Of a stretch of DNA of 64,000 bases, positions 47,838 to 63,662 are shown in pieces; the stretch's first letter is position 1; each line of letters starts with the position of its first letter. The translations under genes were made by a program, and so were the position numbers. The stretch comes from an uncultured Dehalococcoidia bacterium (GTDB lineage Bacteria > Chloroflexota > Dehalococcoidia > Lucifugimonadales > UBA1123), in the NCBI GenBank assembly GCA_958296105.1, contig OY282441.1, positions 1,727,585 through 1,791,584 on the forward strand, written 5' to 3'. The notes below the pieces were generated by a model that searched no databases, was not told the origin of the DNA, and worked only from the letters and a program-made list of their open reading frames with translations.

Positions 47838-49928
47838 ATGAACAAGATGACCGCGCCGGACGTCGTCGCGCCGATTGGTCGCTGGCGCGCTCCGACAGCG
47901 CGCCCCAGCAGAACATATGTACGGGGGGGGGGGGTACGACCCGTATTCTGGCTCATCGCGCTCGTTCTGCTTGGAGTTCTCGCAGCCGCCTGCTCCGACG
48001 ACTCGGCGGAGACGACCCCGCCCGCAGAGGCAGCCGCCGAGGTCGAAGCGACAGCCGTTCCCAAAGAAAGTCCAGTTCTCACCACTCATCTGTATGAGTT
48101 CGAGAGCGAGTCCGTCAGACTCGAAAGTTTCGACGGGAGCGGCGGGGCCATCGAAAGCGTGGGGGATGACCTGCTCGTCGTTACGCCGAAGGGAAGGTTT
48201 GCCCTCATCTCCCCGGGCGGGACTGTGGAATATCTGGACGGCAGCGTTCCTATGAACTATACGGGGCTGGAATCGAGCCTAATCAGCCTGAAGCCCGATT
48301 TCGACCCGCACCCATTTCGAGCCGCCGATATTCTGCTGAAAGAGATCGAGGCAGGATACACACTGTTTGTTACCCATCACTATTTCACCGGAGAATGTGT
48401 CCGGTTCAGGTTGTCGTCCACGACACTGGTTAGAGAAGGACAGAGGCTGACACTCCTGCCGGATTGGAGAACGATATTCGATGCGGAGCCATGTTTGGAA
48501 CAGCCCAGTGGATGGCAGAATTCGGGCGGGAAGATGCTGACGGATGGAAGAGAACACTTACTCGTAACAGTCGGCAACCATACGTATGGACAGCGCCCCA
48601 TTCCTTCCAACCTGCACATAGGCAAACTCGTTCGCATTGAAATCGAAACGGGAGAATCGGAGATACTGGCCACCGGCATTCGCAACTCACAAGGGCTGGC
48701 GCGGGATGCGCAAGGCAATCTGTGGGCAACGGATCACGGGCCGCAAGGCGGGGACGAGCTCAACCTGCTGCGGGAGGGAGCCGATTATGGCTGGCCGCAA
48801 GCCTCCTACGGCGTTGGCTACGGCGGCGTATCTCTCCGGCTGGTCGAGGACGAGGATACAGGCAGGCACGACGGCTTCGAGCGGCCTGCGTTCTCTTGGA
48901 TCTCGTCGACAGCCGTTTCCGCCGTCGCAGTCAACGACGAGCGGCGGCTGCCTCTGTGGAAAGACGACCTGCTGGTTGCTTCGCTGGTCGCCGGCTCGCT
49001 ATTGCGAGTCCGCCGTCACGGGACGGACGTGCAGTACGTCGAGAAGATCGAAGTCGGCTACCGCATCCGAGACATAGCGCTCATGCCGGACGGACGCATA
49101 GCCCTGCTGCGCGATGGAGGGTGGGTCTATTTTCTGAGCCGTTCCACGAGGCACTGCCATGAGGAGGCTCGGAATCGCCGCGACGTCTACTCGATCAACT
49201 GCGAGTCTATCGCCGCATCGCCGCCGCCGGACTCGGGAACGGCGGCTCCATCTGCTAATGACTTGGGTAGAGACACGGCGGCAGGCGCTCGTCTATTCGG
49301 TCTGCAATGCAGCGTCTGCCACAACCAGAACGCCGAGCGGCACGGCGACGGTCCGCACTTGGTCGGCGTCATCGGGCGGCAGGCGGGCGAGGTCAGCGGC
49401 TTTGACTTCTCGGAGGGGCTGCGTTCGCTGGACGTCGTCTGGACGCGGTACAGCATCACGCGGTTTCTCACCGCCCCGCAGCAGTTCGCCCCAGGCACGT
49501 CCATGTCGTCACCCGGCATTGGCGAAGAGGAAGCCCGCGCCATCGCCAACTATCTCGACAGTCTCGATCGTCTGTCCCGGCTGATCGAAGACAGCACGCC
49601 GTCAATCCGCTCCGACTTCGACGTGTATCTCAGTGACAACAAGCTGACCTACGTCAGAGAGCAGTGCGCCCGCGCCGACACGGAGGCGATGTTCTTTCTG
49701 CACCTGTACCCAGTGGACGTGAACGACCTGCCCATCTTTCGCAAGCAGCACGGCTTCGACAATCGCGACTTCAGGTTCGACACGCGCGGCGTGATAGTCG
49801 ACGGGAGATGTATGGCGACGGTGGATCTCCCCGAGTACGCTGTCTCTGAAATCAGAACCGGCCAGTACGTGCCAGTGGACGACGGTTTCGATAGCCTCTG
49901 GGAGGGGGAGATTCGGCTTGCTGAGTAG
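47838..49928 (+). CDS. PQQ-type sugar dehydrogenase lipoprotein with cytochrome c and shared C-terminal domain
   Basis: 696 residues. After the start comes a run of 12 G within codons for ArgGlyGlyGlyVal, then a hydrophobic segment with lipobox LLGVLAAACS. Residues ~90-430 are a soluble glucose/sorbosone dehydrogenase propeller (GIRNSQGLARDAQGNLWATDHGPQGGDELNLL and DYGWPQ are family hallmarks). Residues ~470-580 are a monohaem cytochrome c with CSVCH and a distal Met in GTSMSSP. The last ~107 residues are the module also found at the ends of the proteins at 50166 and 52904. The product would oxidise sugars outside the membrane and pass electrons to a c-type cytochrome. Changes in the G run would shut off synthesis of the lipoprotein. 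Confidence 0.85.
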   Translation: MNKMTAPDVVAPIGRWRAPTARPSRTYVRGGGVRPVFWLIALVLLGVLAAACSDDSAETTPPAEAAAEVEATAVPKESPVLTTHLYEFESESVRLESFDGSGGAIESVGDDLLVVTPKGRFALISPGGTVEYLDGSVPMNYTGLESSLISLKPDFDPHPFRAADILLKEIEAGYTLFVTHHYFTGECVRFRLSSTTLVREGQRLTLLPDWRTIFDAEPCLEQPSGWQNSGGKMLTDGREHLLVTVGNHTYGQRPIPSNLHIGKLVRIEIETGESEILATGIRNSQGLARDAQGNLWATDHGPQGGDELNLLREGADYGWPQASYGVGYGGVSLRLVEDEDTGRHDGFERPAFSWISSTAVSAVAVNDERRLPLWKDDLLVASLVAGSLLRVRRHGTDVQYVEKIEVGYRIRDIALMPDGRIALLRDGGWVYFLSRSTRHCHEEARNRRDVYSINCESIAASPPPDSGTAAPSANDLGRDTAAGARLFGLQCSVCHNQNAERHGDGPHLVGVIGRQAGEVSGFDFSEGLRSLDVVWTRYSITRFLTAPQQFAPGTSMSSPGIGEEEARAIANYLDSLDRLSRLIEDSTPSIRSDFDVYLSDNKLTYVREQCARADTEAMFFLHLYPVDVNDLPIFRKQHGFDNRDFRFDTRGVIVDGRCMATVDLPEYAVSEIRTGQYVPVDDGFDSLWEGEIRLAE
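47923..47934 (+). repeat. poly-G tract (12 nt) in the dehydrogenase coding region
   Basis: Twelve G in frame between codons 28 and 33, upstream of the lipobox. A one-base change shifts translation out of the main frame before the signal sequence. Confidence 0.9.
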
Positions 49929-57505: not shown

Positions 57506-58498
57506 CTAAGCGCTGAAATACTGAAAAAGTATCAGCGCGATACTGCCTGCAACTACCAGAGAGCAGGTCATCAGCCAGAGCGGGACCCGTCCGCCCGGCA
57601 GTTTCACGCCACTGAACGAGGCAGGCAAGATTGCCGCCAGCCGTCCCTGCCGCAGCATGATCTCCAAAGAGTAGAAAAGGCAGGCGATGCCGAGCAGGTA
57701 CTCCCGCGCCTCGAACAAAACTCCACGATCGACGATAGCAAGGCGGTACACGTTATCGTAGTTCACGTAAGAGAGAGCAAAGACGAGGGCTAGGGTTGCA
57801 GCGAAAGCGACGAACAGTTTGGCTTGCCGTGAAATCAGGGCGAAGATGCAAAAGAGCAGCAGCAGCGCCTTCACCTCGATCACGATGAATCCGTAGGATA
57901 TTCTGGTGCGCGCCAGATACTCTCCGAAGTCCATTCCTGCCGCATCTCCGAGCCACGTTCCGGACTCATAGGAGAGCATTATCAGAAAGCCCAGCATCAG
58001 CGGAATTGACGGCAGCGGAATCCCGAAGAGCCTGTCTTTTCGGCAAAAGAAGGCTGCGCTGGCTGCCACGCACAAGACCAGCGCGCTGTTCAAGTAGATA
58101 ATGCTGAATATTACATTGTTGATAGCGTGGACATTGAATTCCTTCTTCTGGTTCAAGGACATCAAGAAATCGGGCGTCGCAAACCCGAAGATGCGCTGCC
58201 CCCAGCTGATCTCTTCGCCAAACGCGAACACCATCACCATACCGCCGAGAATATAGACGCAGCGACGGGAGAAGCTACGCTCCATCCATGCCGCGCCGAA
58301 CAGCGGGAAGCCCGCCAAGAGAAACCATACCGCAGTGAGATTCTCCACCCAGTGGTCTTCCCGGGTCAGCGCGTGCAATGTCTGCGGGGCGGCGACGAGA
58401 AGAAAGCCAAGGAAGAGTACGCTCAGACACAGACAGAGGTAACCAATCACAGCAACCTTGGCGTCTAGCCCGGTTGTTGCGGGGGGGGGGGGGGACAT
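57506..58498 (-). CDS. polytopic membrane protein, unknown function, with 14-C tract behind the start codon
   Basis: 330 residues with eight or nine predicted spans. I know EEISWGQRIFGF as a conserved motif of an uncharacterised membrane protein family; no function is established. The ATG at 58498 is followed by T and 14 C (MSPPPPATTG). Counting 14 C keeps the main frame. An earlier ATG at 58530, overlapping the upstream flippase stop (ATGA), reads into the same C run and would be in frame with the main part if the run had 15 or 12 C. So the C run can decide which start works. Confidence 0.75.
   Translation of the reverse strand: MSPPPPATTGLDAKVAVIGYLCLCLSVLFLGFLLVAAPQTLHALTREDHWVENLTAVWFLLAGFPLFGAAWMERSFSRRCVYILGGMVMVFAFGEEISWGQRIFGFATPDFLMSLNQKKEFNVHAINNVIFSIIYLNSALVLCVAASAAFFCRKDRLFGIPLPSIPLMLGFLIMLSYESGTWLGDAAGMDFGEYLARTRISYGFIVIEVKALLLLFCIFALISRQAKLFVAFAATLALVFALSYVNYDNVYRLAIVDRGVLFEAREYLLGIACLFYSLEIMLRQGRLAAILPASFSGVKLPGGRVPLWLMTCSLVVAGSIALILFQYFSA
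58481..58494 (-). repeat. poly-C (poly-G on +) tract, 14 nt, at the start of a membrane-protein gene
   Basis: Fourteen bases within codons 2-6 of the gene at 57506-58498. Slippage by one base in either direction changes which start codon is in frame. Confidence 0.92.
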
Positions 58499-58526: not shown

Positions 58527-59885
58527 TCATTGCTTTCTTGACTCCATCCTGCATTTACACGCCGCTCGCTGCGGTTTCCGCCGCAGGCGGCGGCTTTGTC
58601 GCAGTATCGAGATTGCGAACGGTATCGAGACCACTGCAAAGACGATGAAGTACGCCGCATTCGCCCAAGCCGCGCCCTCCGCGCCTCGCACGGGAGCCAG
58701 CCATACGATGACGGCGATGGAAGCCGTCAGACCCGCCATTTCCCCCGCCACCGACGGCCAGACCCACCCAGCGGCAGCCGGCAGCGCGGCAAGCGCGGAA
58801 ATGCTGTTGGCGGCGAAGGCGCCGGAAATCATAATCAGCAGCAGCTGGGAGACGCCCGCGAACTCCTCTCCCAGCAAGAGCCGGGCTATGGGTCGATGGA
58901 AGACGGCAAGCAGCCCGAACAGCGCTGCGGCTGACGCGAATGACACTAGGCTAGACATCAGAGCGGTGCGGCGGAGCGTTCCCCCTTGCCGCGAGTACCA
59001 CTGTTTGCTGTATTCGAGCTGCACCCCGTTCCGCAGCGCCTGAAACGGATAGTGTCCGGTGTCGGTAACTTGCCGCGCCGCCCGGTACAGCCCTACGTCC
59101 GCGGCGGCGGTGAACTGCGCCAACAGGAGAGTGTCCAGACTGTACAGCGCAGAGACGGTGTGCCTCCCGAATATTCCGATCTGGAAGCGCGCCACGTCTG
59201 GCGGAACTCTGAGCGACAGCGAGGCGAGGAAGTCGGTTATCCCCGCGCGCGCCGTCGACACCGTCGCGGCAGCGAGCATCCCGAGCCCACTCACCGCGAC
59301 ACCGGCGATATGCGTCAGGACCACCTCGAACATCCCGCCCCCTTGCAGCCATACCACTCCGAGCAGAGCGACCCGGGTCAGAACGCCCGCCAGAGCGATT
59401 GCCAGACCCAGGGATACCCGGTCGGACAGCCGCAGCGCCGCCAAGGTTTCTGTCCGTGTGGCTAGGAGAATCCCCACGACGCCGTACATGAGCGCTACGC
59501 CCCGATGGTCGTTCTCGATTCCCAACAGGCTGCTTGCCGTCAAGATGAGAGCTGCGATGAACACGTAGGCGATGAGCGACAGCCCCAGGGACATGGCAAT
59601 CGTAAAACGCAGTATGCGAGCCGCCTCTTGCGGTCGTCCCTCCGCTACTGCCCGCGATACGAAAGTCGTAACGGCTTCACCGCCGGGCGCGGACATGAGC
59701 GCGTGGATGAGCGTGGCTGCGGCGATCATGACGGCAAGGACGCCAAAGCCTTCCGGTCCGAGTATCCGCGCGGAGATGATCAGATGCGCCAGTCCGCCCA
59801 AGATCTGGACCGCCGTAATCGCGCCCATCCAGAGGGTCTGCCGAGCCACGCGCCTGTCCGAGGATGGCAGCAGTCGAGTAAGCAT
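58527..59885 (-). CDS. Wzx-like polysaccharide flippase (second copy)
   Basis: 452 residues with about 12 predicted spans; early segments such as LGGLAHLIISARILGPEGFGVLAVMIAAATL are typical of the Wzx/MOP group, moving lipid-linked units across the membrane. It is a distant relative of the flippase at 41187. It is translated just downstream of the GT4 gene at 59891-60958 (5 bases apart) and its end overlaps a start codon for the next gene. The first ~15 residues contain basic RRVARQT. Confidence 0.88.
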   Translation of the reverse strand: MLTRLLPSSDRRVARQTLWMGAITAVQILGGLAHLIISARILGPEGFGVLAVMIAAATLIHALMSAPGGEAVTTFVSRAVAEGRPQEAARILRFTIAMSLGLSLIAYVFIAALILTASSLLGIENDHRGVALMYGVVGILLATRTETLAALRLSDRVSLGLAIALAGVLTRVALLGVVWLQGGGMFEVVLTHIAGVAVSGLGMLAAATVSTARAGITDFLASLSLRVPPDVARFQIGIFGRHTVSALYSLDTLLLAQFTAAADVGLYRAARQVTDTGHYPFQALRNGVQLEYSKQWYSRQGGTLRRTALMSSLVSFASAAALFGLLAVFHRPIARLLLGEEFAGVSQLLLIMISGAFAANSISALAALPAAAGWVWPSVAGEMAGLTASIAVIVWLAPVRGAEGAAWANAAYFIVFAVVSIPFAISILRQSRRLRRKPQRAACKCRMESRKQ

Positions 59886-59890
59886 CTTGC

Positions 59891-60958
59891 CTATCTGCCC
59901 GCCAATGCGCGCAGCTCCTCAGCCAGTCGGTCGAAATGTCGCCCGCTGCGGAACAGCTCGCCGCGCCGCTTGGCTCCAGCGCAAAGCCGCCGATACAGAG
60001 TCGGGTCGTCGATCAGCCGCTCGATCGCCGCCTTCAGCTCGGACGCGCAGCGAGGCTCCACCAGCAGCCCGCTCTTTTCGTGTTCCACCTGCTCGGGCAC
60101 TCCGCCTATCGAGGCTGCTACGACCGGCACGCCGCACTGGAAGGCTTCTATGATGATTCCCGGAGTGCCTTCGCTTCTCATGTAGCTGAGGAACAAGAGC
60201 AGGTCGTGTTCGGCGAAGACGCGGGGCGCGTCCTCCGGCTCCAGCGTCCCGCCGTAGGTCGCCTTGGGGTGGCCGTCGAACAGGGAGAAGTCGGTGTTGG
60301 GCATACGGGGCCCGAACACCTGAAGATGACATCCATCGGGCAGAGAGCGGCAGGCGTCCAGCGCCTCCGCCAGCCCCTTCTCCTTCCTGAGCTGGCCCAT
60401 GAACAGCAGTCTGCGGACTCTGTCCCGACCCCGACGGGGCGGAGGAGGGGCGAAGTCTCTGGTGTTTGCCAGCCAGCGGAAGTTGTCCCGACTGCTGAAC
60501 TCGCGGAGCGTCTGCCTCTCCTCGTACACCAGCGAGGCGCGTAGAAACGTCCGCTCCATCAGCCAGCGGCGCGCGCGCCCGTAACGATGGTAGGTGAAGT
60601 AGAGGCTGTCCCCGAAGAACCGCAGCGCCAGAGGACGGCGCAGCGCAAGGCACAGCCCCCAGATGGCGGACGCCGCCAGCAGCGCAGAGTAGGCGGACAT
60701 GTGAAGGAACACCAAGTCTGAGCGCCGCGCCCTCCACAGGACTTCCCAAACCACCCGCGCGAAGGTGAGAAGCTCGTAGCTCAGGATCTTCCAAAGGGGC
60801 AGATTGGGCCTCGGCCTAGACGTGTTGACGATGTCGAGCTCGAAGCCTCGCATGTCCAGCTCGCGCACCGCTTCCGCAAACGTCACCCTTGCCCCGCCGA
60901 TGGGTTCTCCGAGCGACGCAGGCTTGGCGGGCAGGGGGCCTATGAGTAGAACCTTCAT
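59891..60958 (-). CDS. GT4-family glycosyltransferase (second copy)
   Basis: 355 residues from ATG 60958, which overlaps the stop of the preceding propeller gene as ATGA. N-terminal MKVLLIGPLPAKPASLGEPIGGARVTF, then VRRLLFMGQLRKEKGLAEALDACRSLPDGCHL, and the donor site region EGTPGIIIEAFQCGVPVVAASIGGVPEQVEHEKSGLLVEP. Close paralogue of the transferase at 42593, sharing whole stretches, so one arose by duplication of the other. Its translation depends on the upstream gene being read through to its real stop. Confidence 0.9.
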   Translation of the reverse strand: MKVLLIGPLPAKPASLGEPIGGARVTFAEAVRELDMRGFELDIVNTSRPRPNLPLWKILSYELLTFARVVWEVLWRARRSDLVFLHMSAYSALLAASAIWGLCLALRRPLALRFFGDSLYFTYHRYGRARRWLMERTFLRASLVYEERQTLREFSSRDNFRWLANTRDFAPPPPRRGRDRVRRLLFMGQLRKEKGLAEALDACRSLPDGCHLQVFGPRMPNTDFSLFDGHPKATYGGTLEPEDAPRVFAEHDLLLFLSYMRSEGTPGIIIEAFQCGVPVVAASIGGVPEQVEHEKSGLLVEPRCASELKAAIERLIDDPTLYRRLCAGAKRRGELFRSGRHFDRLAEELRALAGR

Positions 60959-61962
60959 CGCGCGGGGAGACGCTGACAACTGATATCACCTCTCAGCTTC
61001 CCACCCTTCCCATCAGTTTTTCCCTCTCCATTGCGGGGGGGGGGGGGGGGTAATCCAGCAGCCGTTCGTCTGTGCAGAACCCGCCCATCCAAGAATTCGA
61101 GGCCGTCGGCGCGGTTGACCGTGTGCGTGCCTCGGTTGCCGGGCAGCGCGGAGCCGTCGATGCGCCCGATGGGGGTTTCGACATAGGCGCGCTCGTTCAG
61201 CTCGTCCACCCGGTTGAGGACCACCGCGCCTCCATAGCGTCCGCTGCAATCCTGAGAAGGGCGAATCAGGCGGCCGGCTCGGAAGAACAGCCGGCCGGCC
61301 GGCCGCGCCCGGCGGCGGTCGGACACCACCGGATTGGATGGGTGGGGCTGCCACGCCCCCTCCAGAGCATCGGCTGTGTAGATGTGCAGCTCGTCATTGG
61401 CGCGCGCCCTCGCCTCGCTCACCGTGCCGAACAGCCACAGCTTGCCGTCCTGCCGGTGCAGCGTCGGGTCGCTCATGCTCACGCCGTCCAGCAGCGCCCC
61501 TTCTCGGATCCAGTCGTCGGGAAAGCGGCGGCAGCGCCACAGATCGACCCGATTCTCGTCCCAAGTGTCGGGAATCAGATATAGCCGCCCCTGATGCTCG
61601 AAGACAGACGGGTAGGAGAGATGGTACGGGCATTCCAACGCGGTGACGGCTGCGCCCAGATCGCCGTCGGCGGACACCGGAGCGCACGATATGACGGCTC
61701 TCTTCGACGCGAAGGAGTAATCCTCGAAGAACACCCAAACCTTGCCGTCTACGACTATGGGGAAGGGGTCTGCCCAGAAGCGACCGGGCGGGGCGTGATG
61801 CACTTTCATCAGCGGCGAGCGCGCCCGTCCGCTCATTGCGGAATCGGCAAGCGGCAGGCCGGCGTTCACGGCAAGGAACCACTGCTCTTCGCCGAAAAGC
61901 CGTCGATAGGCTTTCTTGGCAGGCTGGGGTGAATGGCGGGACAGAAAACGCAAGATATCCAT
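60955..61962 (-). CDS. glucosamine inositolphosphorylceramide transferase-like propeller protein with 16-C tract near the end
   Basis: 335 residues. The stretches ADPFPIVVDGKVWVFFEDYSFASKRAVI, LSYPSVFEHQGRLYLIPDT and SDPTLHRQDGKLWLFGT are hallmarks of a GH43-like beta-propeller family named after plant glucosamine inositolphosphorylceramide transferase. In bacteria its role is unproven, but it often sits in glycan or formyl/sugar-transfer loci. The body ends near GTHTVNRADGLEFLDGR. Then 16 C code for LPPPPPR and a basic tail leading to a stop that overlaps the GT4 start. A one-base change would end the tail early in another frame and break the coupling. Confidence 0.8.
   Translation of the reverse strand: MDILRFLSRHSPQPAKKAYRRLFGEEQWFLAVNAGLPLADSAMSGRARSPLMKVHHAPPGRFWADPFPIVVDGKVWVFFEDYSFASKRAVISCAPVSADGDLGAAVTALECPYHLSYPSVFEHQGRLYLIPDTWDENRVDLWRCRRFPDDWIREGALLDGVSMSDPTLHRQDGKLWLFGTVSEARARANDELHIYTADALEGAWQPHPSNPVVSDRRRARPAGRLFFRAGRLIRPSQDCSGRYGGAVVLNRVDELNERAYVETPIGRIDGSALPGNRGTHTVNRADGLEFLDGRVLHRRTAAGLPPPPPRNGEGKTDGKGGKLRGDISCQRLPAR
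61035..61050 (-). repeat. poly-C (poly-G on +) tract, 16 nt, in the 3' end of the propeller gene
   Basis: Sixteen bases, the longest homopolymer of the window. The current length keeps the frame that overlaps the downstream GT4 start; the two other frames stop at about 61013 and 60993. Confidence 0.92.
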
Positions 61963-62096: not shown

Positions 62097-63662
62097 TCAT
62101 GCCGCCGGCTCGGAGCGGCGGCGTCTGAGGAGGCGCGCTGAATACCACGCCGCGCGCGCGCGGAGGAACTGCCGCGCCAGATACTGCACTCGATAGAAGT
62201 CTCGATGCAGCAGCATCAGCCCCACCCTGCGCCAGCGGCCGCGCTGGTTCTTGCGCCCTACCACCGCCGCCGCCTCGCGGACAAGCTCCCTGAAACGCTC
62301 CGGCGGGATGAAGGCGGTGAAGCAGTTTTCCGGGCTCTGATGATTGTAGATCGTGATGTCGAAGTCGTCGTCCACCACCCCAAGCTCCTTGCACACCTGA
62401 AACAGCTCGGAGCCCGGATATGGGGTGAAGATGCTCAGCATGATGTTATCCGCGTTGATCTTCTCGATGGCAGTCAGAGTGTCTCTCAGCGTCTCCTCTG
62501 TCTCTTCGGGGAAGCCGATCATAAAGAAGGCGCCGACTTCGATGCCCGCCTGTCGGCAGAGGTCGACCGCCACATACGCCTTCTCGATGGTGTGTCCCTT
62601 CTTCACGCCGCGAAGTATTCGGTTGTTTCCGGACTCGATGCCGATATTCACCCGCACACAGCCGGAGCGTCTCATGTGTTCGACCGACCGCTCCTTGACC
62701 ACGCCGACCGTTATCTCGCAGCCCCATTTGAGCCCGGGGCACTCGGTTTCGATCAGGCTGCACAGCTCCTCGATGTAACGCGGGTGTATGCCGAACGTGT
62801 CATCGTCGAAGTAGACGTATCTGACGCCCCGCCCCATCAGCATCTTTAGCTCTCTCACCACGTTCTCAGGCGAGCGCCAGCGCGTCTTTTGCGTCCATAT
62901 GGCTTTGGACTCGCAGAACGTGCAGCTGTACGGGCAGCCGCGAGCAGAGAAGACGTACCCGAAGGCTTCGGCGGGATAGCTCTCGTAGTCTCGAAGGATT
63001 TGCGGGGCATACTCCGCGGGGAAGGGCAGCTCGTCCAAGTCGGGGATCTGAGCGCGCGGGGGTGTGAGCGCCACCCGCCCGCGCCGACGGTACGCGATCC
63101 CGGATACCTCGCTCAGCGGCGCGCCGCTCTGCCGAGCCTCGAGCAGACCGACCAGCGTCAGCTCCCCTTCGCCCAGCGCAGCCACGTCGATATCAGGGCA
63201 GTCCAGCGCCTTCTCTGTGGACAAGGAGGCATGGGGGCCGCCCAAGACGACGAGCATGTTGGGGTTGTGCTGCTTGGCGATGCGCGCAACCTTCATAGCG
63301 GACGGGAAGTTCTGGGTCTTGGAGCTTATGCCGATGACGTCCGGATCGAACTCCGTTATGGCAGAGCGCACCTCTTCCCAGATGGGCGCCGCCGGGTCTT
63401 CCAGCGTGCGCAGGTAACGCTCCATCCCCTCCTCGATGCGGGTTACGTTGTCGAGTGAGATAGCCCTCTTCTTCGGATTGAAGTCGGCGTTGTATGCCTG
63501 TACCTCCCAATCCGTCCACTTCAGGATCGCTCCCGATAGATAGCCAAGCGCCAAGGGCAGCTTTACCAGTGAAGCGCTGTCGTGGTAGAGACGCTTGAAA
63601 GGCGGGTCTATTATCATAATCCGCTTTGCGCCGTGAGGAGCTTTGGATTGCTGCATCTCCAT
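62097..63662 (-). CDS. B12-binding-type radical SAM enzyme (BchE-like)
   Basis: 521 residues. An N-terminal cobalamin-type Rossmann domain (RIMIIDPPFKRLYHDSASLVKLPLALGYLSGAIL and VALGEGELTLVGLLEA) is followed by the radical SAM core with ARGCPYSCTFCESK (C-x3-C-x2-C), a YVYFDDDTFGIHPRYIEELCSL motif 3 region and NIGIESGNNRILRGVKKGH. C-terminal ~90 residues are basic. Such enzymes often methylate or cyclise unreactive carbons in lipids, sugars or cofactors. AGGATGG precedes ATG 63662. Its place at the edge of the glycan locus suggests a lipid or sugar modification. Confidence 0.85.
   Translation of the reverse strand: MEMQQSKAPHGAKRIMIIDPPFKRLYHDSASLVKLPLALGYLSGAILKWTDWEVQAYNADFNPKKRAISLDNVTRIEEGMERYLRTLEDPAAPIWEEVRSAITEFDPDVIGISSKTQNFPSAMKVARIAKQHNPNMLVVLGGPHASLSTEKALDCPDIDVAALGEGELTLVGLLEARQSGAPLSEVSGIAYRRRGRVALTPPRAQIPDLDELPFPAEYAPQILRDYESYPAEAFGYVFSARGCPYSCTFCESKAIWTQKTRWRSPENVVRELKMLMGRGVRYVYFDDDTFGIHPRYIEELCSLIETECPGLKWGCEITVGVVKERSVEHMRRSGCVRVNIGIESGNNRILRGVKKGHTIEKAYVAVDLCRQAGIEVGAFFMIGFPEETEETLRDTLTAIEKINADNIMLSIFTPYPGSELFQVCKELGVVDDDFDITIYNHQSPENCFTAFIPPERFRELVREAAAVVGRKNQRGRWRRVGLMLLHRDFYRVQYLARQFLRARAAWYSARLLRRRRSEPAA

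Follow-up and report, generated by a model that had tools for sequence, protein, structure and literature searches.

It is chiefly in animal pathogens that phase variation of bacterial surfaces has been documented. Surface-glycan genes of Neisseria, Campylobacter and Helicobacter provide the classical homopolymeric (SSR) contingency loci, in which a long run of G or C at a gene for a glycosyltransferase gives access to three reading frames; such loci serve surface functions and occur several times per genome. The C tract described here resembles them in each of these respects. It lies in a 64,000-nt stretch of DNA (hereafter, the window) from an uncultured member of the Dehalococcoidia and, in contrast to the classical loci, its length is known from the assembly alone. 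Classical tracts are usually located early in the frame or in the promoter, whereas this one comes after the domain conserved in the upstream gene and forms part of the leader of the gene that follows. By analogy, the nearest functional precedent would be the tlpB-hp0102 leader of Helicobacter pylori, in which a variable G-repeat (RepG) grades a glycosyltransferase (PMC8295292). Both loci carry a variable-type G/C repeat in a leader, within an operon that includes a glycosyltransferase, and we propose graded rather than on/off control here also. However, the tlpB-hp0102 repeat belongs to the 5' UTR of the first gene, where a small RNA recognizes it (PMC8295292), whereas the window tract lies between two genes and inside an open reading frame (ORF). 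Translational coupling through a 4-nt stop/start overlap, the class used by GeneTack (PMC3711429), offers a further comparison. As in that class, the propeller stop and a start codon share bases at the assembled length of 16 C (n = 16), and eleven relatives show a TTGA overlap with an internal Shine-Dalgarno (SD) sequence. Unlike that class, the better start in the window lies 21 nt upstream of the overlap and has an SD of its own.

The tract belongs to a minus-strand glycan cluster encoding a radical SAM/B12 protein, a propeller enzyme, a GT4 glycosyltransferase, a flippase and a membrane protein (Table 1). The propeller ORF is a member of PF24793, scoring 117.8 bits against a curated cut-off of 27. 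The conserved domain spans residues 57-265, well ahead of the tract, which itself lies 55 nt 5' of the likely GT4 start codon. According to a dinucleotide model, only 0.00005 C/G runs of at least 16 nt are expected in the window; for runs of at least 12 nt, 3 were observed and 0.011 expected. The C16 run is thus far above chance and longer than the approximately 8 nt from which homopolymers are counted as SSR contingency tracts. The propeller frame was recomputed in silico for tract lengths from 10 to 22 C. It ended at TGA 60957-60955 for 13, 16, 19 and 22 C, at 60995-60993 for 15 and 18 C, and at 61015-61013 for 14 and 17 C, so that tract length selects among three distinct stop positions, an effect on frame and leader of the kind found at SSR contingency loci. 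The initial annotation had reported a 16-nt C tract occupying the final codons of the propeller gene, past its domain, with frame ends at ATGA 60958 and near 61013 and 60993, and had expected the enzyme to stay largely intact; all of this was reproduced, the PF24793 domain preceding the tract.

Table 1. Coordinates of the cluster genes, the homopolymer tracts and the junction signals in the window
Feature	Position	Strand	Remarks
Radical SAM/B12 protein	62097..63662	-	Upstream cluster gene
Propeller-type glycan enzyme ORF	60955..61962	-	Pfam GINT1_N PF24793, E 6.5e-34
C16 homopolymer tract	61035..61050	- (G16 on +)	In 3' tail of propeller ORF
TGA	61013..61015	-	Tract length = 2 mod 3 (14, 17)
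TGA	60993..60995	-	Tract length = 0 mod 3 (15, 18); directly 5' of GT4 SD
Shine-Dalgarno GAGGTGAT	60985..60992	-	8-nt anti-SD match, 5 nt before TTG 60979
ATGA stop/start overlap	60955..60958	-	Tract length = 1 mod 3 (16); downstream ATG without SD
GT4 glycosyltransferase	59891..60979	-	PF00534; TTG 60979 (homolog of the ATG in L036/L037) is the likely start
Polysaccharide flippase	58527..59885	-	PF01943; next cluster gene after GT4
Second window tract, C14	58481..58494	-	Directly follows ATG of the membrane protein gene at 57506-58498; a length of 14 is in frame
Third window tract, G12	47923..47934	+	5' end of GSDH/cytochrome c lipoprotein gene

The same annotation had held the ATGA to be decisive: GT4 would start at ATG 60958 and be translated only when 16 C lead the propeller frame to the overlapping stop, all other lengths leaving it uncoupled. 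The ATGA does exist at n = 16, the propeller gene of one relative (L058) meets its GT4 gene at an ATGA in the frame that the window uses at that length, 11 relatives have a TTGA overlap, and two further operons (L270 and L190) show overlaps at their assembled lengths. Nevertheless, the start-site features argue against this model. A strong SD serves TTG 60979, ATG 60958 lacks one, and TTG 60979 aligns with the ATG from which GT4 starts, after a spacer, in the sister loci L036 and L037; for these reasons we took TTG 60979, rather than ATG 60958, as the likely start, judging from sequence features. In the 11 relatives, GT4 starts at the TTG of the TTGA overlap, with a GGAGG ahead of it in nine and at a distance of 7 nt in eight. 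The weak or absent SD expected for the second gene of a coupled pair was not observed at TTG 60979, whose 8-nt SD stands at 5-nt spacing. Relative to this codon, the stop reached at n = 16 lies 22 nt past the start, with the SD crossed, that at n = 15 or 18 lies 13 nt upstream, directly beside the SD, and that at n = 14 or 17 lies 33 nt upstream. Re-initiation in coupled genes reaches over all three distances, and a graded effect of tract length on GT4 output is therefore more likely than an on/off one. A stop beside the SD, as at n = 15 or 18, would be a favorable place for re-initiation, and uncoupling at lengths other than 16 does not follow. A tract that strictly decides coupling at ATG 60958 is accordingly unlikely, and tuning around an independent GT4 start is probably the better description.

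The origin of the junction was traced in 29 related loci found in named bacterial genomes. Propeller relatives of 76-87% identity stop at residue 303-310, where the window tract begins; residues past about 302 show no conservation, and the tail after the tract is 30 residues long. In L036, the sister gene of the window propeller (support 98/94), and in L037 the propeller stop is a TGA at the matching place, followed by a spacer of ~80 nt before GT4. By homology, tract and tail therefore correspond to spacer, and the ancestral stop codon has been lost from the window gene. At the propeller-GT4 junction, a tract was absent from all 29 related loci, leaving the window genome as the only carrier among these relatives. 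These observations are compatible with a neutral history in which slippage enlarges G/C runs in the spacers of GC-rich genomes, where they are tolerated, the ORF continuing as poly-C without meeting a stop. Two genomes of the same genus, G001 and G003, in which no tract of at least 12 nt was found, point in the same direction.

Metagenome-assembled genomes (MAGs) share the propeller gene, in most cases next to GT4, at 64-87% protein identity (L036-L059, L064), the hosts being Chloroflexota, Gammaproteobacteria, Latescibacteria, Binatia, Nitrospirota, Acidobacteriota and Entotheonella. The spread of the cluster across phyla at this identity points to horizontal transfer, as read from protein comparisons, and the sharing of propeller and GT4 would reflect exchange within one kind of community. 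From community make-up and accession series, we infer that these MAGs derive from sponges; the window bacterium is probably sponge dwelling as well.

Tracts between cistrons were found in further loci. In L270, a GT2-like gene runs into a C17 tract and at this length its stop forms a TTGA with the GT4 start, whereas 16 or 18 C lead to an early stop; in L190, a C24 tract leads to a GTGA over the start of the next gene; and in L049, a G21 tract between the radical SAM and propeller genes fuses both into one frame. Because of these loci, we regard poly-C in the last codons with the stop over the next start as a recurrent layout, L270 and L190 being two independent operons in which the overlap is present at the assembled tract length. 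Overlaps of 4 nt at the assembled length amounted to 3/6 versus 0/12 (P = 0.025; 0.095 without the window), a preference that is only suggestive. Within the GT4 family, a tract occurs within 80 nt of the start in 3/57 other copies, compared to about 0.08 expected, and a GT4 pseudogene (L052) is joined via G22 to a radical SAM gene. In four genomes, a tract recurs about 1.5 kb upstream of a second GT4 paralog, where it apparently precedes a flippase gene by ~200 nt (L122, L201, L276; G170:C2:306691, G171:C1:324726, G171:C2:3069285).

The window genome, a single contig of 3.18 Mb, contains 12 tracts of at least 10 nt, C16 included. In this genome (G000), 11 of the 12 have G on the plus strand (P = 0.006), a strand bias that was absent in G016 and G158, and the part of the contig from 1.79 to 3.18 Mb is free of tracts. 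Tracts of at least 12 nt were present in all 25 scanned MAGs, which carry the propeller gene and belong to several phyla, about 300 in total, and in 63 of 147 genomes of the order. Five pairs of paralogous tracts with flanks of at least 90% identity all differed in length (G17/G21, G18/G15, 14/13, 13/15 and 11/13). The G17 and G21 tracts of L129 and L142 (both in G020) have flanks that are 99% identical over 252 nt, and that of L129 lies inside a long ORF. Together with the layout of L270 and L190, the paralog differences bear out the view, put forward at the outset, that a tract of hypermutable type sits at an operon junction. Long G/C homopolymers are difficult for every sequencing platform, and the assembled 16 might be a consensus error that hides another length and frame. 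With near-identical copies differing by up to 4 and tracts of varied length in 25/25 searched MAGs, there is no question that the tract exists, and we consider such an error highly improbable as an explanation. Loss of mismatch repair was dismissed as the cause of hypermutation because MutS1 and MutL were present in the ten genomes tested.

Placement was analyzed for 90 tracts of at least 12 nt from nine genomes. Sixty-five were wholly intergenic, spacers making up 11% of the DNA; 20 lay within 150 nt of a gene end (11 at the 3' end and 9 at the 5' end), and 5 were deeper inside genes. The distance from spacer tracts to the next start did not depart from the spacer null, as the neutral history predicts. 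However, the genes concerned are not a random sample. Hydrophobic segments were found in 41 of 55 genes downstream of tracts but in 14 of 55 control genes (P = 4e-7, an indicative value, with controls from one genome and related families counted more than once). The recurring downstream domains were LRR, Ig, Fn3, PMT-type and glycosyltransferase, whereas controls were mostly metabolic enzymes; this surface and envelope bias is a feature of SSR contingency loci. L095 and L098 (G000 297245 and 869987), large PD40/WD40 repeat protein genes, have each kept a G tract (17 nt and 14 nt) in a matching position some 160-195 nt 5' of the start, even though these paralogs are only about 80% identical, and a tract after the ATG has been kept in many copies of one membrane protein family. 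Considering both sides, we judge neutral growth of the run to be rather improbable.

A tract 55 nt before the GT4 start could also act on RNA or transcription, either through a small RNA or structure as in the RepG precedent (PMC8295292) or through promoter spacing, and in L037 the matching spacer contains a TATAAT promoter-like site. No such site was found in L036, no convincing promoter or terminator was found at the window junction, and related GT4 leaders differ in having C or G orientation. Across the set, neither a fixed tract-to-start distance nor a fixed orientation was detected; both vary by locus, with no single conserved geometry, and a promoter-spacing device was rejected as a general rule. 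Control at the RNA or promoter level therefore seems quite unlikely at this junction.

The other two window tracts lie in different settings. The membrane protein with the C14 tract (57506-58498, minus strand) is encoded two genes downstream of GT4 and belongs to a multi-span family without a Pfam match. Many copies of this family in Chloroflexota and Acidobacteriota MAGs carry poly-C of 10 to 27 nt directly after or near the start codon (L109, L140, L161, L172, L186, L198, L205, L241 and L261-L264), with interrupted C-rich versions elsewhere, an arrangement that looks like a classical phase-variable N terminus. In the region 47838-47934 (plus strand), the G12 tract adjoins a palindrome-like motif, GAAC-N4-GTAC/GTTC, which can be likened to the Gram-positive LexA box; such a motif also abuts the G tract at other loci (L100, L106, L107, L120, L121, L124, L149, L156, L157 and L170-L179), and the tract is usually then followed by TA. 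A loose form of the motif borders 23/116 tracts; these come from several phyla and stand in different frames, and leaders such as MNKMTAPD..TYVRGGG were found repeatedly ahead of unrelated genes.

It is reasonable to regard the window tract as one of contingency type, located in the leader of GT4. We infer slippage at C16, an effect on GT4 and selection for switching, and envisage the following mechanism. Slipped-strand mispairing would alter the length of the tract, and the length would set where ribosomes leaving the propeller gene stop relative to TTG 60979. The stop position would then raise or lower GT4 translation stepwise and leave the propeller enzyme intact, and the flippase behind GT4 might be affected likewise. 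We give roughly even chances to this full reading, namely, a hypermutable contingency-type tract at the propeller-GT4 junction, one member of a genome-wide set, whose length sets the stop and grades GT4 translation.

The placement of tracts at the edges of surface genes in many phyla suggests that they are kept as switches that vary bacterial surfaces. A broader proposal is offered only tentatively: symbiont-type bacteria of several phyla may share length-variable G/C tracts, located at gene starts and operon junctions, that spread with horizontally exchanged glycan and surface genes, the junction described here acting through stop position as a rheostat of three steps instead of an on/off switch. 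In the literature searched, we found no paper joining phase variation with the eukaryotic-like proteins of sponge symbionts. If tract lengths prove to differ within the population, uncultured symbionts from many phyla would be seen to phase-vary their surface glycans and eukaryote-like repeat proteins, and the junction would offer a testable case in which the position of a stop codon exerts control between two genes of an operon.
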